Positions 1 to 44,001 of a DNA stretch of 44,001 nucleotides are shown in pieces. The notes beneath the pieces were generated by a model. The model made no database searches and was not told the origin of the DNA. It worked only from the letters and a program-made list of their open reading frames with translations. Source of the stretch: Balneolia bacterium (lineage in GTDB: Bacteria > Bacteroidota > Rhodothermia > Balneolales > Cyclonatronaceae); NCBI GenBank assembly GCA_022565795.1, contig JAIUMA010000024.1, positions 1 to 44,001 of the forward strand. Direction: 5' to 3'. Position 1 is the stretch's first letter, and each line of letters begins with the position of its first letter. Position numbers and translations under genes: made by a program.

Positions 1-3000
1 GTGACAGAAGTGCAGATTTATGTTCATCACATCTTGTTCAGTTGTTTAGCGATGAGGCGCAGATATCAATATCGCCCGAAGAATTATTTTCAACACAATA
101 CCCCGATTCTGTTGAGACATTAAATTTGAATATTTCTAATAACGGAAACAGTACACTCACTTACGAAATATTCAATACGCAGACCCAAACGGTACTTCAT
201 TCAGGCTTCAGTTCCGATCAACAATTAAATGTCGGAAACATATCATCCGGCTCCTCTGCCGACCTGCTATCAGCCACAGAAGGAACTCCGCCGCGTACAT
301 CCATCGCATTTATGCCTCACAACACTTTCGATTGCGAGGGTGCTGAAGGGCTCATAATTCAGGACAATGGAGAAATCGACAACGGTTACAGCGGAAACCC
401 TAACCTGGTGGACGAAGTAATAGTCGCAGAAAGTTTTTCTATTCAGGACCCTTCATCTTTTGGTACCATATGTATTAGTCTGCTCTCTTTGGGTTCAGAA
501 AGCCTTGACTTTGAACTGGTTATCTACTCAGCTGACGAATCAACCGGAGCACCTGACGAAGAACTTTTTTCGGTTTGGGCAACTGCCGAGGATCTGCCGG
601 ACGGTTTACCGGATGAACCCGCCTGGTACACCGTCGATTTATCAGGTGCAGCGCTGCTGGCCGAGCCGGGCACTTATATAATTGGAGCCCGTTTCCAGCC
701 GCAGGATCCTAACGTATTTGTCGCAGCCGACGAATCCAGCGATGAGCAGGGAAATGGATGGTTTTATACAGATGATGCGGATGAATGGGTTCCCTTGACA
801 ACCCAGTTCCCCGATTACAAGAATTTGCTCATCCGTCCGCAGCTTACCGAACCCCTGGCCTGTATGTCGCCCGAAGAGGTTTCATGGATATCCGTGGCCG
901 ATGACTCCGGCGACGTGGCGCCCGGTGAAACGGAGCAGGCTTTAGTAACGCTTGACTCATCAGGGCTGACTGAAGGCACCTACGAAGCACTGCTTTGCGT
1001 TCTGAGCAACGATCCTGAAGCGGGACTTACAGAGGTTCCGGTAACCATGGAGGTTCTGCCTGATCCGCCCGTGGCCGAAGTCAATCCTGAAGAACTTAAT
1101 CCTGCGGCGGAAGAAGGAAGTCAGACAACTGAGACCATCACAATTTCAAATTCGGGAATTGGAGAACTGGAATGGACAGCAGGTACCACCAGCGAAACCC
1201 GTTATGGAACGTCAGCACCTGGTTTTCAGGAATACAACACAAGCAGCATGCAGCAGCCATTAAGCAGCTTCGACTGTGATGAAGCCGACGGACTTATCAT
1301 TCTGGATGCGGGCATTATCGACAACGGATATTCCGGAAACCCTGCGATGATCGACGAAGTTACAATAACGGAAAGCTTTTCCCCTGAAGATGGTGGGGTC
1401 TTAGGCACCGTATGCCTCAGCTTTATGTCACAGGGTCCTGAAAGTCTCGATTTCGAACTGGTTGTCTATCAGGATAATCCGAATGCTGATGGGCCCGGCG
1501 TGGAAATAGCCAGCGTACAGGCAACGGCGGAAGATCTGCCTGAAGCTGAGACAGGTATCGAAGCTGAATACTGGGTTACCGCAGACCTGTCGGGTCTTAA
1601 CATTATCGTAGAGGATGGCGAGCGCGTATATATAGGTGCAAAATGGTCTCCACCATCTCCGAATGTATTTCTTGCAGCAGACGAAAGCAGCTCTGTAACG
1701 GGTGAAGGCTATATCGATCTGGATGATGGCTGGCAGCCGATTCAGAATCAGTTTACGGAATATAAAGCCATGATGATAAGACCGCAGTTTATGGATCTTA
1801 GCGGTTGTTTCGACCCTGAGGGCACCGACTGGATCAGTCTTTCGGCAACCGATGGTATCATTGCTTCTGGTCAGGAAACTGAGATAACCGCAACTTTTGA
1901 TTCTGAAAACCTGTCACCCGGCACCTATGAAGCGCAGGTTTGTTTTCTTACAAACGATCCCGATAATTCTGTAGTTGCCATACCCGTATCATTCACTGTA
2001 GAAGAGGTACCTGACCTGGCAGAAGTTTGGCCGGGAGACACCAATAACGACGGTGTTGTAAGCCTTAGCGATGTGCTTACGATCGGTGCATTCTGGGGTG
2101 AAGAAGGTCCCGCCCGCGACGATGACGGCACCAGCTGGGAGCCGAATGAAGCTGAGTTCTGGGAAAATGAGCCAGCAGCCACCTGGGCAGATGCCAATGG
2201 TGATGGCGTTATAGACGATGATGATCTCAGCATCATTGTGCAGCACCAGGGTAACACGCAGCCGGACTATGAGCCATCAGACGAGGCGCCAATCAGCGAA
2301 AGCAACCTGCCCTCCGCTGAGCCCGGATCAATAATAACCGCAACCTTAACTCAGGTGCCGGATGACATACTCGGAGCGGCCTTTTACTTCACCATAGATG
2401 GGGGAAACAGTCCTGAATGGACAATACACTCCTTCGAAGCCGGCGACTGGGCACAAGAGTGGATCACTGATGATATGCTCCTGAGTCTCGACTATATCGA
2501 TGGGAGTGATTTTGGCATCGTCTGGGCCCACAAGGGTGAAGCTGCTCCATCACAAGCGCAGAATCTGGTAACTGTAGAAATCGAGGCCGGTGAAGGCTGG
2601 AACGGAGACCTCAATCTTCTGGTCAACCAGGTTAATGTCCTGGATGAAAACCTGGAGCAGGCATCTCTGAGCGGCGTGATCGTAGATATAACGGTTGAAG
2701 ACCCTGTCGATACACCAACAGATACGGAACTGCCCCAGGTTACAAAACTCAATCAGAATTACCCGAATCCGTTTAATCCAACCACTAACGTACAATTCGA
2801 CCTGGCCTCACAAGCTGAGGTTGTGCTTGAGGTGTACAACGTGCTGGGTCAGCATGTATCTACTCTAATCTCAGGAGAAATGATGCAGGCCGGATCTCAT
2901 TCCGTTACCTTCGATGGCTCCAGACTAAACAGCGGTGTTTATTTCATTCGTATGCAGGCCGGCAGCGAACAGTTTACAAAAAGCATGACGCTGGTGAAGT

Positions 3001-3002
3001 AG
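1..3002 (+). CDS. Secreted repeat protein with dockerin-like domain and type IX sorting domain (5' partial)
   Basis: The reading frame is open from base 3 with no convincing start, so the gene begins left of the window. It holds two copies of a unit of about 314 residues (roughly bases 60-1062 and 1074-2010). Each unit contains an FDC..DGLI....DNGYSGNP block and ends in an Ig-like segment with a SNDP..VPV strand of the type common in Bacteroidota surface proteins. Bases about 2027-2270 encode two dockerin-like calcium loops (GDTNNDGVVSLSD and ADANGDGVIDDDD). A cohesin-like beta domain follows. From about 2750 a type A T9SS sorting domain begins with QNYPNPFNPTT and ends SMTLVK. The product is inferred to cross the outer membrane by the type IX system and to be released or attached at the surface. 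No catalytic motif is visible, and its ligand is unknown. Confidence 0.9.
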   Translation, partial: DRSADLCSSHLVQLFSDEAQISISPEELFSTQYPDSVETLNLNISNNGNSTLTYEIFNTQTQTVLHSGFSSDQQLNVGNISSGSSADLLSATEGTPPRTSIAFMPHNTFDCEGAEGLIIQDNGEIDNGYSGNPNLVDEVIVAESFSIQDPSSFGTICISLLSLGSESLDFELVIYSADESTGAPDEELFSVWATAEDLPDGLPDEPAWYTVDLSGAALLAEPGTYIIGARFQPQDPNVFVAADESSDEQGNGWFYTDDADEWVPLTTQFPDYKNLLIRPQLTEPLACMSPEEVSWISVADDSGDVAPGETEQALVTLDSSGLTEGTYEALLCVLSNDPEAGLTEVPVTMEVLPDPPVAEVNPEELNPAAEEGSQTTETITISNSGIGELEWTAGTTSETRYGTSAPGFQEYNTSSMQQPLSSFDCDEADGLIILDAGIIDNGYSGNPAMIDEVTITESFSPEDGGVLGTVCLSFMSQGPESLDFELVVYQDNPNADGPGVEIASVQATAEDLPEAETGIEAEYWVTADLSGLNIIVEDGERVYIGAKWSPPSPNVFLAADESSSVTGEGYIDLDDGWQPIQNQFTEYKAMMIRPQFMDLSGCFDPEGTDWISLSATDGIIASGQETEITATFDSENLSPGTYEAQVCFLTNDPDNSVVAIPVSFTVEEVPDLAEVWPGDTNNDGVVSLSDVLTIGAFWGEEGPARDDDGTSWEPNEAEFWENEPAATWADANGDGVIDDDDLSIIVQHQGNTQPDYEPSDEAPISESNLPSAEPGSIITATLTQVPDDILGAAFYFTIDGGNSPEWTIHSFEAGDWAQEWITDDMLLSLDYIDGSDFGIVWAHKGEAAPSQAQNLVTVEIEAGEGWNGDLNLLVNQVNVLDENLEQASLSGVIVDITVEDPVDTPTDTELPQVTKLNQNYPNPFNPTTNVQFDLASQAEVVLEVYNVLGQHVSTLISGEMMQAGSHSVTFDGSRLNSGVYFIRMQAGSEQFTKSMTLVK
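60..2010 (+). repeat. Tandem internal duplication, two units about 942 bp apart
   Basis: The encoded blocks FDCEGAEGLIIQDNG (FDC codons from base 327) and FDCDEADGLIILDAG (FDC codons from base 1269) are offset by 942 bases, or 314 codons. Both are followed by IDNGYSGNP and ESLDFELV. The similarity is clear at protein level but diverged at DNA level, so the duplication is old rather than recent. Confidence 0.85.
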
Positions 3003-10835: not shown

Positions 10836-11912
10836 CTACAGGCGGGCCAGAGAGAAGCGAAGGGAGAGGCGGTGGGTAAATCCCAGATCGGATGATGTCC
10901 CGGCAAAACTGCTGAAGCCGTAGTCGAAATCAAACGCGCCAAGACGCAGGCCGGCACCTAAAGTTGGGGATGTATAGATACGGCTGCTGCGGTCAGTGGC
11001 GAAATCAGTGAGTCCGAATCGAAGGAAAATGGTATCCACGTAGCCGGCTTCAACGCCAACATGAGGTTCGATGCTCATTGAGCCGACATTCATGTAATAG
11101 GTGCGGCGGTTTTCGAAGCGAAGATCGGTATCAAGTGCAGTTACCAGGCTGAAGTCTCCGAAGTCGAACAGTCGGGCAGCGCCAAGTTTCACCGTTGGTA
11201 GAATAACCTCGTTTTGTCCAACCGGAATTTCGTCACCGAACTCTGTTTCGAGCGCGCTGAGCTCGTTCGCATCAACCGACCAGAATTTCATCATGGTGGT
11301 TATATCCATAAGGTTTACACCAAACTGATAGTCGCCGGCACGGTAGAGCGCTCCCACATCGAGGCTATAGCCCCATGCATCGGCAAAGGGCCCGATGCGG
11401 CTGTTCAGTACTTTTACGCTCGCTCCCCAGCTCAGGCGTTCATTCACCGGGCTGGCATAAGAAAGTAGAAAAGCCAGATCCGCAGCGCTGAACTCAGTGA
11501 TGTAGTCATTCACATTTTCCCGCGGACGCTCGCGCTCACGATCCCAGGCGTTCAGGGTATTTTTGATATTATCTACACCCTGACGAAAAAAACTGAGAGC
11601 CAAAACGCCGTCCGATCCGGGAACCGGCAGAGCAACAGCGCCATAATCGTAGCCCACGATACCACCGAAACGCTCGGAGTGCATATAAGCAACTTCCAGG
11701 TCCTGCACGCTCAACAGTCCGGCAGGATTCCAGTATGCGGAAGTAACATCATTCGAAAAGGCAACGTGTGCACTTCCCATACCCAGCGCTCGGGCGCCGC
11801 TTCCAACCGACATGAAATCATTTCCATAAGAAACGCGGATAAAATCCTGACACTCAGCCTTAGAAAAGGTAAAAAGGGATGCAATTACAATAAGAAAAAT
11901 CGAGCGGATCAA
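10836..11912 (-). CDS. PorV/PorQ-family outer-membrane beta-barrel protein
   Basis: This 358-residue protein has a signal peptide (hydrophobic to about residue 18). It opens with the family block SVGSGARALGMGSAHVA followed by SAYWNPAGL, the same signature as the PorV in this window. The rest is amphipathic strands ending in an aromatic/leucine-rich C-terminus (LRFSLARL), typical of an outer-membrane barrel. PorV and PorQ assist type IX secretion. Which role this copy plays is unclear, because it is not beside por genes but beside a matrixin-like lipoprotein. It has its own predicted promoter. Confidence 0.82.
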   Translation of the reverse strand: MIRSIFLIVIASLFTFSKAECQDFIRVSYGNDFMSVGSGARALGMGSAHVAFSNDVTSAYWNPAGLLSVQDLEVAYMHSERFGGIVGYDYGAVALPVPGSDGVLALSFFRQGVDNIKNTLNAWDRERERPRENVNDYITEFSAADLAFLLSYASPVNERLSWGASVKVLNSRIGPFADAWGYSLDVGALYRAGDYQFGVNLMDITTMMKFWSVDANELSALETEFGDEIPVGQNEVILPTVKLGAARLFDFGDFSLVTALDTDLRFENRRTYYMNVGSMSIEPHVGVEAGYVDTIFLRFGLTDFATDRSSRIYTSPTLGAGLRLGAFDFDYGFSSFAGTSSDLGFTHRLSLRFSLARL

Positions 11913-33210: not shown

Positions 33211-33750
33211 TTGACTGAAGCGACCTCATACAAATCTACCGTCCTTACCTGGTTCGGTCTGACAGTTCTGGCCTTTATCGGGCTGGGATGCTGGAATCCG
33301 TTCGCACCAGGCGCAGAAGAGGGTGATCCGTTTGAGGAGCTTTTGGGCGACCCTTCCACCATAGAAGGTTTTTTCACCCGTTTTCAAAATGCGTACCAGC
33401 TTCGTGATACTACGTTGTATGGCCCGCTGATTGCATCGGACTTCACCTTCACGTTCCGCGATTACGACAACAATGTGGATATAAGCTGGGGTAGGGTTGA
33501 GGAAATGAACAGTACGTACAGGCTTTTTATAAACAGCAGGGATATTCGCATTCAATGGAATAACATTATCTCGCAGGAAGTTAATGCGGAGCGGGACCGC
33601 GCGCAGGTAATCAGAAGATTCGACTTAACGGTTGCGCTTGAAGCCGCCGACCTGATTCGGACTGACGGAGCCGTAAATTTCGTTTTGGCAAGAGAAGATT
33701 CGACTGAAAACTGGCAGATCCGTTCATGGAGAGATGAATCGGATCTGTAG
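33211..33750 (+). CDS. Lipoprotein with NTF2-like fold
   Basis: This 179-residue product starts at TTG; no ATG or GTG precedes the signal. The N-terminus ends in a lipobox (FIGLGC, Cys27). The mature domain (FFTRFQNAYQLRDTTLYGPLIASDFTFTF...WGRVEEM...WQIRSWRDES) has the strand-helix pattern of small NTF2/SnoaL-like domains. No catalytic residue is evident. It follows the PLP enzyme gene by 24 bases. Confidence 0.72.
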   Translation: MTEATSYKSTVLTWFGLTVLAFIGLGCWNPFAPGAEEGDPFEELLGDPSTIEGFFTRFQNAYQLRDTTLYGPLIASDFTFTFRDYDNNVDISWGRVEEMNSTYRLFINSRDIRIQWNNIISQEVNAERDRAQVIRRFDLTVALEAADLIRTDGAVNFVLAREDSTENWQIRSWRDESDL

Positions 33751-35198: not shown

Positions 35199-35358
35199 AA
35201 GTTCCTTTCTATCCGCACTCAATTACACAAAAGAGCTGATTTATCGCGACATACGCTACATAACTGTTTACAAATACTTTCACTATTTTGGAGATTAGCT
35301 TTTTTTGTCTTCTCCGTCGCCAAGCAGAACCTTTTATTCACGCTCTGAATTGAATACC

Positions 35359-38300
35359 GTGCACATTTTTTCCCGCGTTTGTATTTTGTTGATTTTCATC
35401 GGAATTACTTCCGTTGATCTTCATGCACAGCAGTTCCGTGTTATTCAGCAAACGTCTGAATTTACCGATTACGAATTCCGGAACGACAGCCTCAAAATTG
35501 CAGCTCCGGAGTTTCTGGATGTCCCATTTCGCGAAGGCGAACTTCGCTACCGCGTGCTCGAACAGGACATCGTTCGCACAAACAGGGCTAATAACCTGAT
35601 GTCTCAGCAGGTAGGCACCGCTGAAGACCTGATGGCGATTATCCCATCGACCTCGGAGTCTTTCATTGTAGCAAGCCCGGTTTTTGAGTATCGCAAACAG
35701 TACCGCTCCACGCTTATCCTGAACGTTGCGCGCCAGGATTTGAACAATTCCGAGAGCTTTCTGGTAGCCAGACATTTGCGCATCAGGGTGTACAACGACC
35801 AGACCTGGTCTGCCAACGCCACGCAGGGAGCCGCCCGCCCGCTTTCGGCTGAAGCGCATCCCCTCAACAGCGGCACATGGTACCGGATACCGATTACTAA
35901 AAATGGAATCTACCGCCTGAGCCGCAGCTATCTTCGCGATTTGGGAATTGATACCGATAACATCGACCCGAGAAACATCCAAATATGGGGTACTCCGGGA
36001 TACGAGCTGCCAAAGCCGAACGCCGATGAGCGTCCTGCTTTTGCACAAATCCCGATTTTGGTTGAAGGTGAGTCAGACGGGAATTTCGGCAGTAACGATG
36101 CTGTCATATTCTACGCCAACGATATCAATGAGCGCATTTTCGATCCGGTTGCACGTGACTGGAGCCATAATCTGCATGCTTACGACACCCGGAACTACAT
36201 TTTTATAACCGTTGGGCAAGAGCGCGGACAGCGCCTCACTCCATTTCAGGCTTCCGGTTCGGTTTCTCAGGAGATTACACAATTCCGCGACTTCCTCTGG
36301 CTGGAGCAGGATCTCTACATGCCGGAATCCCAGCAGCGGTCCGGCACATTTTGGTTTGGTCAGCTTTTTACGCCTGAATTCAGCAATCAAACCGTATTCA
36401 CAGATACACTTGCCGGCTTCATCCAGGGCACTGATGTGGAATTCAGAGCCAGAATGGGCGCGCGTTCCAGAACGACATCATCATTCAGTTTTACTAAGGC
36501 CGGACAAAATGCGGGCTCAATCACCATTACGCCAATCACAAATCTCGTATCGGCAACAGGGAGAGCGGCCAATTTGGGTAACATCACTCGCATCATCAAT
36601 AATGTAAACCTGGAGAACGACCGCATTCAGGTTCAGGCGCAGTTTAACCCAACTTCACCCGATACACGCGGTTGGGTAGACTTCATCCATATTCGCGCCA
36701 ATCGTCTTTTAGCTCCGAATAACGGTATTCTGGAGTTTTTGTCACCTGATGATGCTGAAAGCAGCCCGCAGATAGCCCGATACGTATTTAATGGCTTCAC
36801 TTCTCAGCCGATGGTGATGGATGTCACCGATCCTGCTAATCCCGTTCTCATTCCTTCTGAAGGCAGTGGTAACAACTGGTCGGCCCGCTATTTCTACAGC
36901 CCGGGCCGCAAGCTGATTGCCGCCACAAGATTTTTAACGCCTGCAATGGGCTCACCGGTGGCGAACCAAAACCTGAGCGGCACCAACTTTTTCCCTGATT
37001 ACATCATCGTAACGCACGAAACCCTGGTAGACGCGGCACAACGGCTCGCCGACTACCGTGCGGCGCAAAACGGCTTGCGCCCTTTAATCGTAACGCAGCG
37101 CCAGATTTTTAATGAGTTTAATGGCGGCGTTGCAGACCCTGTTGCCATTCGCGACTTCATGAAGTACCTGTATGATATGGCCGGACTCGATGATGATCTG
37201 ATGCCGAAATATCTTGTACTATTTGGCAACGCCACTTTCGACTACAAAGGCATTGAGACTTCCCCTATGCAGAACCTGGTGTTCAACTTCCAGCACTATG
37301 TCGACAACGACAACCTGTCCAGAGTTGACACCTACGGAAGCGATGATTTCTTTGCTTTCCTTGGCGATGATGAGGGCAGCTGGAGACGTCAGGATCAGAA
37401 CAACCGTCTGGACGTGCAGATTGGCCGCTTTCCGGTACAAACCCTGGAACAGGCCAACAATATGGTCGATAAAGTGATTGCCTTTGAAAACCTGGAGCAG
37501 GCCGGCGACTGGCGCACGCTCTTCACTTTTACCGCAGACGATAACGTAAACGGTCAGAGCAACGACCGTGATCTGCACACATTTAACGCCGACTTCACTG
37601 CTGAAACCATAGATGAAGACGCAACCGGCATCCGTGTGCGCAAGCTCTATCAGTTCAGCTATCCGGTCGAGAACACACCTGCAGGTCAGCGCGTACCGCA
37701 GGCCACTACAGCTCTGGTGAATCAAATAAATAATGGTACGCTCACGCTGCATTTTTCCGGGCATGGAAGCGAGCAGCAGCTTACGCAGCAGCGTCTGTTT
37801 CAATCCTCAGATATTCCCCGCCTCACCAACCGTAACCGACCGTTCATTATGGTTACGGCCACCTGTTCGTTCGGGCGATACGACGATAATGTTGACTTCT
37901 CCGGTGCCGAAAAGCTCATTAACCACAACAATGGCGGTGCTGTAGCTTCGCTTACGACCTCGCGCGTAGTATTTACCAGTAGCAGTCCAAATGCCGGGCA
38001 GGATAATAACTTTGCCCTTCATATCGAGCTTACGCGACAGATGGTTGAGCGAAACCCTGACGGTTCAAACAAAACGATTGGTCAAATTTTCAAAGACACC
38101 AAAAACTTTGTCACTGCTAATAACGAGGCCGCTGGTAACAACAGAATTAACAGCCGTAAATTTGTGCTTCTGGGGGATCCGGCTATGACGATGGGACTTC
38201 CTGAAAAGCAAATTGATATAACCAGTATCAACGACATCACAGATTTCAGCACCGGCCCGCTGCAGATTCGCTCTCTGGACCGAATGACCATTGCGGGTCA

Positions 38301-39324
38301 GGTTAGCGATGCCAACGGGCTACCGGATACCGATTTTAATGGTGAAGGCGTCGTGCGCGTATTTGATGCATCGAGGCTTGAGTCGCTGCCTAACCCGGAC
38401 GTAACCTGCGGGCTCCTTCAGCCCGAGTGTGGTTTCCGCGTTCAAAACGACGTGCTTTTCAATGGTCGCGTGAGTATTGTAAACGGTGAATTCAGCACGG
38501 AGTTTATCGTGCCTAAGGATATCGCCTACTCCGATTCCCTCGCCCGAATCCACGTATATGCTGTAAACCCAACCCGTACCGATGCTGCAGGCTCGTTCTC
38601 CGGTTTCTTCCTCAACGGAATTAATGAAGAAGCTGAAAACATTTTCGACGGTCCGGAGCTCGATGCCTACCTGAACGACGACAACTTTGTGAACGGCTCG
38701 CTGGTCAACCAGGATCCGACGCTGTTCGTAAACGTCTTCAGTGAAGGCGGTGTAAATACCACTGGAGCCGGCGTAGGGCACGAAATTATCGCCATATTGC
38801 GGAATGTAGACAATCCGCAGCAGGAACAGACGTTTATACTAAATGATTTCTATTCCGGCGAACTCGATGATTTCACCCGCGGGCAGATTGAATATCCGCT
38901 GGACAATCTCGAAGACGGAAGCTACTCCCTGAGCGTTCGCGTATGGGATGTTTTCAACAATGTCGGAGAGTCTGAAATCTTTTTTGATGTTTCCGGTGGC
39001 AATGACCTCACCATCCGAAACGTGTATAACTATCCTAACCCAATGAATAACTTCACCAGGTTTGCTTTTGAGCACAATCAGGCCGTTGGTCAGCCGCTTG
39101 ACGTGTTCATCCGAATCTATACGCTTTCGGGCAGACCTGTTGCACAAATTCGTGAAAGCCGCATAGCAACCGGCAATCTGGAAATGTTTGAGTGGGCCGG
39201 CCGCGACGACGACAACAATCGCCTGGCCGCCGGAACCTATCTGTATCACCTTCGTGTGCGCACCGACGGACCCGAAGGCAGGATCACACAAGAAAAGATT
39301 GAACGACTTGTAATCATTCGATAA
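35359..39324 (+). CDS. porU: Type IX secretion system sortase PorU (C25 gingipain-like peptidase)
   Basis: The frame is open from TTG 35305, but the GTG at 35359 gives a clean signal peptide (MHIFSRVCILLIFIG..., cleaved near HAQ), so I prefer it; the product is then 1321 residues. PorU cuts the sorting domain off exported proteins at the cell surface and attaches them to A-type LPS. The C25 domain spans about 545-940. The catalytic pair is His802 (HFSGHGSEQQ) and Cys836 (TATCSFGRYD), 34 apart, about the spacing in gingipains. The C-terminus carries its own sorting-like domain (YNYPNPMNNFTRF to VIIR). porV follows, as in other Bacteroidota. Confidence 0.92.
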   Translation: MHIFSRVCILLIFIGITSVDLHAQQFRVIQQTSEFTDYEFRNDSLKIAAPEFLDVPFREGELRYRVLEQDIVRTNRANNLMSQQVGTAEDLMAIIPSTSESFIVASPVFEYRKQYRSTLILNVARQDLNNSESFLVARHLRIRVYNDQTWSANATQGAARPLSAEAHPLNSGTWYRIPITKNGIYRLSRSYLRDLGIDTDNIDPRNIQIWGTPGYELPKPNADERPAFAQIPILVEGESDGNFGSNDAVIFYANDINERIFDPVARDWSHNLHAYDTRNYIFITVGQERGQRLTPFQASGSVSQEITQFRDFLWLEQDLYMPESQQRSGTFWFGQLFTPEFSNQTVFTDTLAGFIQGTDVEFRARMGARSRTTSSFSFTKAGQNAGSITITPITNLVSATGRAANLGNITRIINNVNLENDRIQVQAQFNPTSPDTRGWVDFIHIRANRLLAPNNGILEFLSPDDAESSPQIARYVFNGFTSQPMVMDVTDPANPVLIPSEGSGNNWSARYFYSPGRKLIAATRFLTPAMGSPVANQNLSGTNFFPDYIIVTHETLVDAAQRLADYRAAQNGLRPLIVTQRQIFNEFNGGVADPVAIRDFMKYLYDMAGLDDDLMPKYLVLFGNATFDYKGIETSPMQNLVFNFQHYVDNDNLSRVDTYGSDDFFAFLGDDEGSWRRQDQNNRLDVQIGRFPVQTLEQANNMVDKVIAFENLEQAGDWRTLFTFTADDNVNGQSNDRDLHTFNADFTAETIDEDATGIRVRKLYQFSYPVENTPAGQRVPQATTALVNQINNGTLTLHFSGHGSEQQLTQQRLFQSSDIPRLTNRNRPFIMVTATCSFGRYDDNVDFSGAEKLINHNNGGAVASLTTSRVVFTSSSPNAGQDNNFALHIELTRQMVERNPDGSNKTIGQIFKDTKNFVTANNEAAGNNRINSRKFVLLGDPAMTMGLPEKQIDITSINDITDFSTGPLQIRSLDRMTIAGQVSDANGLPDTDFNGEGVVRVFDASRLESLPNPDVTCGLLQPECGFRVQNDVLFNGRVSIVNGEFSTEFIVPKDIAYSDSLARIHVYAVNPTRTDAAGSFSGFFLNGINEEAENIFDGPELDAYLNDDNFVNGSLVNQDPTLFVNVFSEGGVNTTGAGVGHEIIAILRNVDNPQQEQTFILNDFYSGELDDFTRGQIEYPLDNLEDGSYSLSVRVWDVFNNVGESEIFFDVSGGNDLTIRNVYNYPNPMNNFTRFAFEHNQAVGQPLDVFIRIYTLSGRPVAQIRESRIATGNLEMFEWAGRDDDNNRLAAGTYLYHLRVRTDGPEGRITQEKIERLVIIR

Positions 39325-39429: not shown

Positions 39430-40545
39430 ATGAAGCAAGTAACAAAATCTATACTCACCGGTATGCTGCTGATCTGCCTCGGCGCTGGCTACAGCTTTGC
39501 ACAGGTGGGTATCACCGCAGTTCCTTTTATGCAAATCGAGCCTGATTCCCGTACTCCGGGTATGGGTAACGCAGGCGTGGCTATTGCCGACAACGCATCC
39601 GCTGTTTTTTGGAATCCCGCAGGTCTGGCTTTTCAGCCAAAAGAAACCCAGCTTTCATTAACCTACGCGAGCTGGCTTCCGAACTTCAACACCGACCTTT
39701 TCTACAACTACCTTGTAGGTAAAACCCACATTGACGGCATCGGTACTATTGGCGGACACATCACCTACCTCAACCTTGGAGAACAGATTCAAACCGATGA
39801 AACCGGCCGGGAGCTCAGAAGCTTTTCGAGCTATGAGCTGGCAACAGGTCTTAGCTACGGTTTCCAGCTGAACGACAATTGGGCGCTTGGAACGGGCTTC
39901 CGCTTCATTTACAGCCGCCTCACTCCAAATATCGATGTTGGTGGTCAGACAGCGAAAGCAGGTACCAGTGTTGGTATCGACGTAGCTGCGCTCTACCGCA
40001 GTAATGAGTTTATCCTGTTCGATCGTGCTTCCCGTTTCAGTGCAGGTGTAAACCTTTCGAACATTGGTCCTGCCATTCAGTATACGGATGATGCCCAGAG
40101 CGATCCGCTCCCTACCCTCCTTCGCATGGGCGTAGCCTACGATATCGCGCTTGATGATCAGGGTTTCAATACCATTACCTTTGCTGGTGATGTATCCAAA
40201 ATTATGGCTCGTAACGATACCGCCGGGCAGGCTATGGGCGTAATGGAAGCCCTCTACAGATCATGGGACACATACACCCGTTTTGACGGCCAGGACTTCA
40301 TTGATGTACCGCTTGCGGAGCAGTTCATGTACGCCATTGGCGCCGAATACTGGTACAACCAGCAGTTCGCCATCCGTACCGGTTATTTCTACGAGGCACC
40401 AAACAACGGTGACCGTCAGTTCCTTACTTTCGGTGCCGGTCTGCGATACAATATGTTCGGGGTCGATTTCAGCTACTTGTATACCATCCGGGAAGATCAC
40501 CCGCTGGCCAATACCATCCGATTATCGGTTCTGCTGAATTTCTGA
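39430..40545 (+). CDS. porV: Type IX secretion outer-membrane protein PorV
   Basis: This 371-residue barrel protein has a signal peptide cleaved near SFA-QV (residue 24) and the family blocks PDSRTPGMGNAGVAIAD and FWNPAGLAF. It ends in an amphipathic strand, NTIRLSVLLNF, of the kind inserted by BamA. PorV collects cargo from the translocon and brings it to PorU in the attachment complex. The adjacent gene order and the strength of the match leave little doubt. It lies 105 bases after porU. Confidence 0.93.
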   Translation: MKQVTKSILTGMLLICLGAGYSFAQVGITAVPFMQIEPDSRTPGMGNAGVAIADNASAVFWNPAGLAFQPKETQLSLTYASWLPNFNTDLFYNYLVGKTHIDGIGTIGGHITYLNLGEQIQTDETGRELRSFSSYELATGLSYGFQLNDNWALGTGFRFIYSRLTPNIDVGGQTAKAGTSVGIDVAALYRSNEFILFDRASRFSAGVNLSNIGPAIQYTDDAQSDPLPTLLRMGVAYDIALDDQGFNTITFAGDVSKIMARNDTAGQAMGVMEALYRSWDTYTRFDGQDFIDVPLAEQFMYAIGAEYWYNQQFAIRTGYFYEAPNNGDRQFLTFGAGLRYNMFGVDFSYLYTIREDHPLANTIRLSVLLNF

Positions 40546-40580: not shown

Positions 40581-43500
40581 ATGCTCCATTTCTTCATTAC
40601 AGGCAGAAGAATATCCACAGCGGGTATTCTTCTGCTTTTTATTTTTGGCTTCTCTTTTTCTCCGGTGAAGGCACAGGAAACGGTTGTTCCGGCCTTTAAA
40701 CCTCATCAACTTTCTGATAGCGCCGAGCGTCCTGCCCCGTTAAGTTACCCCATCTCCCAGGGAACCATCCATATTGTAGCAGCGATGGTTGAGTTCGAGC
40801 CAGAAGAAAACCGCTTTACTTCCGGCAACGGAACGTTTGAGCTCGATTACCTGATGCGCGATGACATCACAATCGGGCCCCTGCCGCACGATCAGGGCTA
40901 CTTCGAGGCACATCTGCAGTTTGCACGCAACTATTTCGAACAGGCATCCGGCGGCCAGCTCGATATTGAATTCACCGTACTTCCGCAAGTTTACCGCCTG
41001 GATAAGCCGATGCGTGAATATTCTCCAACCGGTCCTGACGACAGCGAAAATTTTCGTCTGGGTGATCTGTTCTACGACACATGGACGACCGTAGCCGCCT
41101 CCGACCTGCCCGACCTGAGCGGTCTTCCGCAGGATCGAACGATGTTTGTCATTTTTCATGCTGGTGCAGGCCGCGACATCGAGCTCACCGGCACCATTCT
41201 GGATAACACGCCGCAGGATATTCCCTCTGTGTTTCTTGATAAGGATGCTGTGTCAAGGCTTTCCTCTGATGCCGGACCTGATTTCGACGGCATTCCCCTT
41301 CCCGGTGGCCTTCGGGTAACTAATACCGCAATTTTGCCCCAAACGCAGTCCAGACGCGGTGAAGACGTAACCGGCGCAGAAATCGTGCTTGAGCTTTCCA
41401 TAAACGGTATTCTTACCGCCAACGTAGGCAGCTTTCTTGGTCTGCCCGACCTGTTCAACACGGAAACGGGATCATCCGGAATTGGTCAGTTCGGCCTGAT
41501 GGACGGTGCCGGTATTTTTTCTTATTACGGACTTTTTCCACCGCTACCCTCAGCATGGGAACGCATATTCATGGGCTGGGATACACCTTTCGACATTTCG
41601 CTTTCGGACGAGGCGCCCATCACCCTGCCTTCCGTTGCACTTGGCGACGCCTCCGCACGGGTAGCTCGACATCGGATTTCCTCCGACGAGTATTTTCTGG
41701 TCGAAAACCGCCACCGTGATCCTCAGGATACAGGAGTAGAGCTCACTTTCCGGCTGCCTGACGGCTCCATAGAAACGCGCACCTTCGATAATAGCGAAGA
41801 CCGCTTTTCACCGACGGACCAAAGTGATTACGATGAAATTTTCCCTGCAGGCGTGCTGGTAAACGTCAGTAATTTCGACTGGAGTCTTCCCGGCGGGCTT
41901 GATGTAGGTGAAGACGGCATTCCGGGCTCTGACGACGACAGAATACTGAACGGCGGCATGCTCATCTGGCATATCGATGAGGCCGTGATACGCAGAACTA
42001 TCGACGACAATGCGATCAATAATAACTTCGACCGACGTGGTATTGCGCTTCAGGAGGCTGATGGTGCGCAGGATATCGGTCGTCCTGCCCAGGGACTGAC
42101 CAACTTCGCCAACGGCGGGCCGTTCGACTTCTGGTGGTCGGGCAACGACTTTACGGTGATTACACCAACCGGCCAGCGTATCGTATTGTACCAAAATCGC
42201 TTTGCGGACGATACTTTCCCGAATAACCGCAGCAATACCGGAAGCAGCACCTTTTTTGAATTTTATGATTTTTCCGACAATCTGCCGGTTGCTTCATTCC
42301 GCGCCAGAACGGCTTCAGCGGAGAATGTAAATCTGCTTTATGAAGGCAACATAGGTACGGGTTATAGCCAGATGGAAGGCCTGTTTTACGCATGGCCGCA
42401 ATCACCTTCACTCTACTCATCCGGGCAGGGAACACCGTTTTTGCTCGTTCCAAGCGCTTCAACCGTCTCAGCTTTTCCATTAAATGCTGAAGCAGGAATT
42501 GATGAAGCAGGCCGCATCGATTTACCTTCAGGCACCGGCATGCCACTATTTACGATGGATGGCGTCCTGACCGTAAGCGAAGATTCCGATGGCTTCAGCG
42601 CTTCTCTTTTCCAGTATGATGAATCTTCTTCTGCTTTCGAAACAGTCTGGGCAACAGGCATTCCGGAGGCCGTTTTTGGCATCCCTTCTACCGTTGATGG
42701 TCAGCTAATCGATATTGATACCACGCCCGCAAGGCTTAATGCGCAAACTGGTGAGATCCAGCTCGTAAGCGGAGGTTTCCAGCAGAGCGCTTCAGTTGGC
42801 GGCGTGCAAACCATCATCGAAAACGGGCAGCTTACGACCACCGACGGTCGCATAAGCAGGAATGTGGGATCCGGAGACGAATCGAGAGTGTATGCGGCAA
42901 CCGTAAGGGTTAACACAGATGCGTCGCCTCAGCCCCTGCTCATCACCAATAATCAAATCACCCTTTTGGCAGAAGACTCCCGCGATGACATCACCCTTGC
43001 ACAGACATCGGGATTTCCGGGTCTCAGCTGGCCGGCACTGGTCGATTTCAACAACGACGGCTCGCTGGACTTCCTTTACATCAACTTTGCCGAGAATCGC
43101 CTTGAAGGGCGAAATGACAACGGCGCTTTCCTTTGGGATTTCCCGCTTGACGCGCCTGAGGGTCAGCGGTTTCTGTCTACTCCGATTGTAGCTGACCTCA
43201 CCGGCGACGGCCGCGCTGATCTGCTTGTTCCGGCAGCAGACAGCCTTTCTTACATTATTCATGCTTTCGACAACCGCCTCAACCCGATCGACGGTTTCCC
43301 TCTCTACGCCGGTTCACTATCTGATGACCCGCTGGAGTTTCCGCTTCAGCCCGTTCTGAGAGATAATCTGCTGTATGCGGTCAGCTCCGCCGGTGATCTT
43401 AAAATCTGGGAGCTCGACGGTACGGGTGAGGTTTTCTGGGGATCTGTTTACGGAAATGACCCCGGAAATAAAGTAGCCGCAAATCCGCTTGGCGACAGCG

Positions 43501-43799
43501 ATGGTCCTTCCGCTTTCGGTCTCCTCAACGCTGAGGAGACTTACAACTGGCCCAATCCTGCAACCAACGAGACGTGGGTAAGGTATCAAACCAGTGAGCA
43601 AGCCGACATCACCATTACGGTAACCAATATGAGCGGTAACCGCTTGTATGAGCGCCGTCTGCAGTCCAGAGGCGGAACGCCCGAGGAAGTTCTGCTCGAC
43701 ACATCCGGATGGAGCAGCGGTGTTTACTACGCCCGCGTACGGGCCACCAACGGCGGACGCGAAGAAACCCGCCTCATTAAAATTGCCGTAATTCGATAA
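40581..43799 (+). CDS. Secreted M6-like pseudo-metalloprotease with type IX sorting domain
   Basis: This 1072-residue protein has a signal peptide to about residue 31 (VKAQ). Residues about 60-330 follow the M6 (immune inhibitor A-like) layout. At the active site the family H-E-F-G-H-x-LGLPDL reads ANVGSFLGLPDLF (Ala280, Asn281, Ser284), so both zinc histidines and the glutamate are missing, while the LGLPDL end and the Met-turn region GQFGLMDGAG (near 302) are kept. Later come FG-GAP/VCBS-like calcium loops (DFNNDGSLDFL near 819, DLTGDGRADLL near 870) and a sorting domain from about 988 (YNWPNPATNET to AVIR). It starts 35 bases after porV, so it is probably in the same operon. A binding or structural role is likelier than proteolysis. 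Confidence 0.85.
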   Translation: MLHFFITGRRISTAGILLLFIFGFSFSPVKAQETVVPAFKPHQLSDSAERPAPLSYPISQGTIHIVAAMVEFEPEENRFTSGNGTFELDYLMRDDITIGPLPHDQGYFEAHLQFARNYFEQASGGQLDIEFTVLPQVYRLDKPMREYSPTGPDDSENFRLGDLFYDTWTTVAASDLPDLSGLPQDRTMFVIFHAGAGRDIELTGTILDNTPQDIPSVFLDKDAVSRLSSDAGPDFDGIPLPGGLRVTNTAILPQTQSRRGEDVTGAEIVLELSINGILTANVGSFLGLPDLFNTETGSSGIGQFGLMDGAGIFSYYGLFPPLPSAWERIFMGWDTPFDISLSDEAPITLPSVALGDASARVARHRISSDEYFLVENRHRDPQDTGVELTFRLPDGSIETRTFDNSEDRFSPTDQSDYDEIFPAGVLVNVSNFDWSLPGGLDVGEDGIPGSDDDRILNGGMLIWHIDEAVIRRTIDDNAINNNFDRRGIALQEADGAQDIGRPAQGLTNFANGGPFDFWWSGNDFTVITPTGQRIVLYQNRFADDTFPNNRSNTGSSTFFEFYDFSDNLPVASFRARTASAENVNLLYEGNIGTGYSQMEGLFYAWPQSPSLYSSGQGTPFLLVPSASTVSAFPLNAEAGIDEAGRIDLPSGTGMPLFTMDGVLTVSEDSDGFSASLFQYDESSSAFETVWATGIPEAVFGIPSTVDGQLIDIDTTPARLNAQTGEIQLVSGGFQQSASVGGVQTIIENGQLTTTDGRISRNVGSGDESRVYAATVRVNTDASPQPLLITNNQITLLAEDSRDDITLAQTSGFPGLSWPALVDFNNDGSLDFLYINFAENRLEGRNDNGAFLWDFPLDAPEGQRFLSTPIVADLTGDGRADLLVPAADSLSYIIHAFDNRLNPIDGFPLYAGSLSDDPLEFPLQPVLRDNLLYAVSSAGDLKIWELDGTGEVFWGSVYGNDPGNKVAANPLGDSDGPSAFGLLNAEETYNWPNPATNETWVRYQTSEQADITITVTNMSGNRLYERRLQSRGGTPEEVLLDTSGWSSGVYYARVRATNGGREETRLIKIAVIR

Positions 43800-43820: not shown

Positions 43821-44001
43821 ATGACTTTTTCCGGTTCCTTATTTAGCAAACGTTTCTTTAAAGGCCTGCTGGCAGCCGGAGCTATGGCGCTGCTTGGTCC
43901 TGCCATTACCGATGTTTACCATGCTGAAGCCCAGCAGCGGCCCGCCTGGCTGAACTACCCGCACAACCATCTCGACTGGTACACTATTAGCAGCGAGCAT
44001 T
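43821..44001 (+). CDS. Exported protein, 3' partial
   Basis: ATG at 43821 opens a frame that runs off the window after 60 codons. It starts with a basic segment and a hydrophobic stretch (GLLAAGAMALLGPAI), likely a signal peptide, followed by AQQRPAWLNYPHNHLDWYTI. The form 'LDWYTI-x-x-EH' recalls the opening of surface beta-propeller (PD40/TolB-like) proteins of Bacteroidota, but too little is visible to assign it. It starts 21 bases after the M6-like gene and probably extends the porU operon. Confidence 0.7.
   Translation, partial: MTFSGSLFSKRFFKGLLAAGAMALLGPAITDVYHAEAQQRPAWLNYPHNHLDWYTISSEH

Follow-up and report, generated by a model that had tools for sequence, protein, structure and literature searches.

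What does a protease homologue that has lost its zinc motif do directly behind the sortase and shuttle genes of a T9SS? The question arises from the window analyzed here – a 44,001-nucleotide stretch of a Balneolia bacterium genome (assembly GCA_022565795.1, contig JAIUMA010000024.1, positions 1 to 44,001). The gene concerned, M6i (T9SS-dependent inactivated M6 metalloprotease homologue; 40581–43799, + strand), had been predicted from the letters of the window to encode a selected, non-catalytic protein – for example a cargo receptor, an inhibitor of PorU or a component of the attachment complex. We considered the protein itself, its distribution across the phylum and the genes that accompany it.

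The M6i gene and its lost catalytic site

M6i starts 35 nt after porV, which sits downstream of porU on the same strand. We assigned porU (35305–39324, +) as the gene for the T9SS sortase from its C25 domain (PF01364) and its NF033707 match (985 bits, cut-off 420), and porV (39430–40545, +) as the gene for the outer-membrane protein that shuttles type A T9SS substrates (NF033710, 299.5 bits, cut-off 250). Relatives with names place the window in the Balneolales. This arrangement recurs across more than 20 families: porV and M6i are adjacent in 58 of the 59 regional loci, and porU, porV and M6i are contiguous in 50. The window's genome (G000) also encodes SprA (1503 bits) and its own PorZ (G000:C10, 386 bits), and it contains about 76 matches to T9SS sorting domains (CTDs).

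Elsewhere in the window, we observed another T9SS type A cargo of 986 aa (42–3002, +; CTD 46 bits) and, far from porUV, a PorV/PorQ-family paralogue (10836–11912, −) that scores 293.6 bits with the 'putative type IX sorting system protein PorV2' model (cut-off 325); literature searches returned no paper on PorV2 as a protein family. Upstream of porU, between a cystathionine-type gene and a thiolase gene, lies a conserved gene for a 179-aa protein (33211–33750, +), which has no Pfam or NCBIfam match and occupies the same place in several Balneolales loci.

The M6i frame is uninterrupted over 1072 aa. Residues 16–1072 align with positions 4–1043 of the NCBIfam profile NF052323 at 1094.2 bits (cut-off 600), and the M6 profile TIGR03296 scores 53.7 bits, below its cut-off of 110.8. 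Full-length M6i is present in a single copy in its genome. A search for a second copy returned one other M6-type match – a distant 637-aa protein (G000:C45) whose HEIGH motif is intact. By inspection, the protein plausibly begins with a putative signal peptide (MLHFFITGRRISTAGILLLFIFGFSFSPVKAQ).

An AlphaFold2 model of M6i (pLDDT 86, pTM 0.84) resolved the domain organization. Consistent with an M6 fold, residues 55–579 (40743–42317, +) of the model aligned with the immune inhibitor A2 zymogen (4yu5_B; VIA-align, Z 21.2, rmsd 3.6, 387 residues aligned). The following region, residues about 580–970 (42318–43490, +), is modeled as a beta-propeller with a BamB-like fold: residues 580–945 aligned with BamB-type propellers at Z 21.6, and a profile search of PDB sequences with M6i gave a weak BamB-type match only. 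The FG-GAP-like loops of the original prediction belong to this propeller, and FG-GAP_3 indeed scores above threshold there (29.7 bits, Pfam cut-off 26.9). A type A T9SS sorting domain occupies residues 985–1072 (43533–43796, +), with PF18962 at 31.3 bits (cut-off 27) and TIGR04183 at 34.4 bits (cut-off 23).

Translation bears out the reported loss of the zinc motif. ANVGS (residues 280–284; 41418–41432, +) stands in the place of HExxH, and it is followed by an intact LGLPDLFNT and by IGQFGLMDGAG at residues 301–311. In an alignment of 95 distinct homologues, which represent over 20 family-level groups, we found H280, E281 and H284 each kept in 0 of 95. Small or polar residues fill the zinc-histidine and catalytic-glutamate positions in nearly all of them, the usual combinations at 280/281/284 being AS..S, AN..S, AS..N and AQ..S. 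Apparent HExxH strings in 1 of the 95 sequences and in 2 of 80 contig matches proved to lie elsewhere, as the aligned active-site columns lack the motif in 95 of 95. A single-strain mutation is thus ruled out as the cause of inactivation, which, judged from this alignment, is ancestral.

The former active-site stretch (residues 270–312; 41388–41516, +) is nevertheless the most conserved part of M6i, with a mean pair identity of 0.70; the corresponding values are 0.45 in the remainder of the M6 domain, 0.41 in the CTD and 0.21 in the propeller. Across the family the stretch 270–312 holds LGLPDLFNT and IGRFGLMDG. Values of dN/dS ranged from 0.045 to 0.124 for pairs where the ratio was computable, several of which are near synonymous saturation.

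Catalysis through another set of residues is one alternative, and M6i does have conserved His, Asp and Glu residues (H103, H193, D213, D290, E370, E375, H464, D466, E492 and D498). Several of these fall in motifs that we take to be general to M6 proteins, and they are presumably structural. Residue conservation among the 95 homologues made no alternative metal site evident, and the zinc-histidine and catalytic-glutamate positions are never His or Glu in this set. We regard such alternative catalysis as highly improbable. Taken with the model, the alignment indicates that the M6 domain of M6i is folded and conserved yet non-catalytic, and the original prediction of a selected, non-catalytic protein is borne out. 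The pseudoprotease status of the family was already known, since NCBIfam curates NF052323 as 'T9SS-dependent M6-like inactivated metalloprotease'.

M6i in genomes without PorU and PorZ

To place M6i among T9SS components, we used an even set of 392 genomes sampled across the phylum. M6i was present in 158 of these, PorU in 275 and PorV in 320. PorV was found in all 158 M6i genomes, and 162 of the 320 PorV genomes lacked M6i. M6i has persisted intact over much of the phylum.

The gene order porU-porV-M6i and a residual distance correlation of 0.50 between M6i and PorU speak for the suggestion of the original prediction that M6i belongs to the PorU-PorV-PorQ-PorZ attachment complex or inhibits or regulates the sortase. 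A weak match of the PorZ profile NF052228 to 4 of 14 M6i homologues points the same way, although the window's M6i itself gave no match to this profile at E 0.1. Against this reading, 16 of the 158 M6i genomes, all near-complete, lack PorU. A relaxed search for PorU in these 16 genomes recovered sorting-domain matches only and no C25 domain, and none of the 16 has PorZ above the curated cut-off. All 16 retain SprA and PorV.

A tree of PorV and M6i, in which some inner nodes are poorly supported, places at least four separate losses of porU with M6i retained – in a Gracilimonas pair, in a Fodinibius/Aliifodinibius clade and at least twice in a Rhodohalobacter-like clade. Gracilimonas sp. ALOHA_A2.5_46 captures sortase loss in progress: some 90 codons from the 3' end of porU survive as a remnant (L153:7475–7783) between the thiolase gene and porV, and porV, M6i and the following gene, X, are intact beside it. 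Candidate porU remnants at five other loci (L016, L020, L021, L025 and L036) reflected loci cut by short flanks, which leaves L153 as the only real remnant. PorU-less M6i genomes have 5–32 CTD matches, compared with 13–87 in the PorU-bearing genomes compared.

We also observed a porU that is broken into three frames in Bacteroidetes GSL.Bin13, where the neighbouring porV and M6i are intact (L142:3775–7734), which is either a pseudogene or an assembly error. One further genome (G056) has PorU and M6i, no PorZ and 13 CTD matches, and it is possibly an intermediate in the loss of the attachment branch.

M6i dN/dS is about equal with and without PorU, and is about 0.1 in the sampled PorU-less lineages. 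These ratios indicate that M6i is under purifying selection, PorU-less lineages included. Because M6i is kept under selection in lineages that lack both PorU and PorZ, a role as PorU inhibitor or attachment-complex component is disfavoured, and we consider it very unlikely. M6i as a replacement for PorZ was ruled out, as a strong PorZ coexists with M6i in most genomes.

A predicted metalloprotease gene inherited with M6i

The strongest association that we found for M6i is with the metalloprotease gene encoded next door, gene X. In the window, X begins 21 nt after the M6i stop and is cut by the contig end after its first 60 codons (43821–44001, +; translation MTFSGSLFSK...LNYPHNHLDWYTISSEH). 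We located the rest of the gene on another contig of the same genome (C122:1–3303), where a near full-length X profile match starts from base 13 and where roughly the last 52 bases of the window appear again close to the contig start. The first 28 bases of that contig (L202:1–28), read as their reverse complement, match a nearby stretch at the window end; this assembly palindrome is a possible reason for the break between the contigs. In 104 of 134 loci, the gene that comes immediately after M6i in the same orientation is an X of about 1100 aa, with a median gap of 4 nt; many of the remaining loci end at contig edges.

X is predicted to be an outer-membrane metalloprotease. In its structural model (pLDDT 84), the metalloprotease domain is N-terminal, a TolB-like propeller is recognized at Z 25.8, and a C-terminal BamA-like barrel aligns with the BamA proteins of D. 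radiodurans (Z 21.4) and F. johnsoniae (Z 19.8). Pieces of X match PF13485 (Peptidase MA) and PF07676 (PD40)/TolB; NCBIfam holds no equivalog for the whole protein, and no paper on it came up in the literature searches. Most members carry HEFTH-like motifs, and residues H125, E126, H129 and E185 do not vary across an alignment of 42 sequences. The gluzincin-type site – HEFTH plus a conserved Glu – is intact, and on these motifs X is predicted to be active.

In about 103 loci, the window's genome included (C122:3354–4427, L202), the next gene after X is Y, a DUF5683-like gene. It is absent beside X, within 1.5-kb flanks, in the G303, G064 and G176 loci. Y may be a third member of the M6i-X module.

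We next took a census of X with a seven-sequence profile, counting full-length matches. X was present in 52 of 52 tested M6i-bearing genomes (12/12 and 40/40) and in 0 of 88 tested genomes without M6i (0/48 and 0/40), which gave propeller-region matches at most. It was also retained in 10 of 10 tested PorU-less M6i genomes. The pairing holds where the two genes are unlinked – about 860 kb apart in G064, and on different contigs in G176, G303, G072, G213 and G128 – and therefore exceeds operon hitch-hiking. These co-occurrence counts are phylogenetically non-independent, and the within-genus co-absences number two. In genus g20, six genomes lack both M6i and X but have PorV and SprA, and four other members have both; in genus g36, G133 has M6i and X, G267 and G375 have neither, and PorV and SprA stay.

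Strict co-inheritance suggests that M6i and X probably act as a pair. It also bears on whether M6i is an ordinary T9SS surface cargo, perhaps peptide-binding or adhesive, whose gene sits in the operon for co-expression. M6i does have the ordinary type A CTD and the propeller seen in many cargos, but its single copy, its fixed position over more than 20 families and its strict co-occurrence with X are not what this reading predicts, and neither is a dead cleft with higher conservation than any other part of M6i. We judge it unlikely.

Possible roles of M6i and comparison with known systems

We propose that M6i is an obligate non-catalytic partner of X, exported via the T9SS and delivered by PorV, and we give this reading, including the direct interaction that we infer, a probability of roughly 40%. 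M6i, with its Sec signal and type A CTD, would be exported through SprA, as these features and known T9SS biology suggest, and PorV would carry it to the cell surface. There it would contact X as a non-catalytic partner. The retained M6 cleft may hold a peptide or protein uncut, and could then either present substrates to X or control X activity or assembly.

Consistent with this partnership, the catalytic motif is absent throughout the family although the former active site is its best-conserved part, selection is purifying, the M6 fold is retained in the model and M6i occurs only with PorV. The linkage of X to M6i, its presence and absence together with M6i (both genera with joint absences included) and its invariant site agree with it as well. 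Our confidence is limited by a mirror-tree analysis, in which the partial correlation was 0.27 for M6i and X, 0.50 for M6i and PorU and 0.49 for PorV and X; as a partner test, it did not single out the M6i-X pair. It is limited too by topology. Domains N-terminal to Omp85-type barrels are normally periplasmic, and the N-terminal domains of X precede such a barrel, so M6i and X could face opposite sides of the membrane – unless X itself carries its N-terminus out, or M6i does its work prior to export or in the course of it.

The main rival holds that M6i is a PorV or translocon accessory – resident on PorV, and helping cargo to leave SprA or holding it at the surface – and that X is coupled to the same step, as in quality control, and not to M6i. 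A cargo receptor, as the original prediction had it, may likewise describe M6i. M6i is never found without PorV and adjoins porV in all but one of the regional loci. To our knowledge, all type A T9SS substrates depend on PorV, and the association of M6i with PorV is therefore weak evidence by itself. The persistence of M6i in genomes with few CTD matches agrees with an accessory role. Immature substrates in porU mutants of P. gingivalis remain attached to PorV (PMC5562754), which suggests that PorV could keep M6i on the cell surface even where there is no sortase, the uncleaved CTD of M6i serving as the anchor. PorV nevertheless works without M6i, as the half of PorV genomes that lack M6i attests, and we find the accessory role doubtful.

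More tentatively than the partnership of M6i and X itself, we suggest that the two may be the dead and live subunits of an unrecognized outer-membrane proteolytic machine, in which a PorV-delivered pseudoprotease receives or presents substrates to a gluzincin anchored by a BamA barrel. Such a machine would be widespread in the T9SS-bearing lineages of the phylum and would outlast loss of the sortase branch. PorU and PorZ have been lost repeatedly while PorV, SprA, M6i and X were kept, which indicates that evolution separates two T9SS modules. Rhodohalobacter and Fodinibius, which have a porV locus without porU, offer organisms for the study of a sortase-free T9SS. As far as the databases and literature searched show, the partner gene X, its strict co-occurrence with M6i and the separation from the PorU/PorZ branch have not been described.

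Among T9SS-linked proteins, PorZ offers one comparison. We know of no M6-like domain in PorZ. M6i resembles it (5m11, NF052228; Foldseek rank 30 for M6i) as a T9SS-linked surface protein with a beta-propeller and a CTD but, unlike M6i, PorZ disappears together with PorU. Within NF052323 (T9SSA_dep_M6i), the M6i of the window is a member with the same architecture and inactivation and no difference. The family name gives neither a function nor, in the libraries searched, a partner, and no paper on M6i came up in open-literature searches. Strict pairing with X, an outer-membrane protease that appears to be active, provides this family, until now a name without a function, with a testable partner. 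Immune inhibitor A type M6 peptidases (4yu5/4yu6) share the fold of residues 55–579 at 16% identity; M6i differs from them in lacking HExxH and in having a beta-propeller and a T9SS CTD. The type B CTD proteins of F. johnsoniae form cognate shuttle-substrate pairs, in which a CTD substrate is genetically linked to an outer-membrane shuttle (PMC12618676). M6i shares this linkage, but its CTD is of type A, PorV serves as a general shuttle, and the metalloprotease X is linked to the pair as a third protein.
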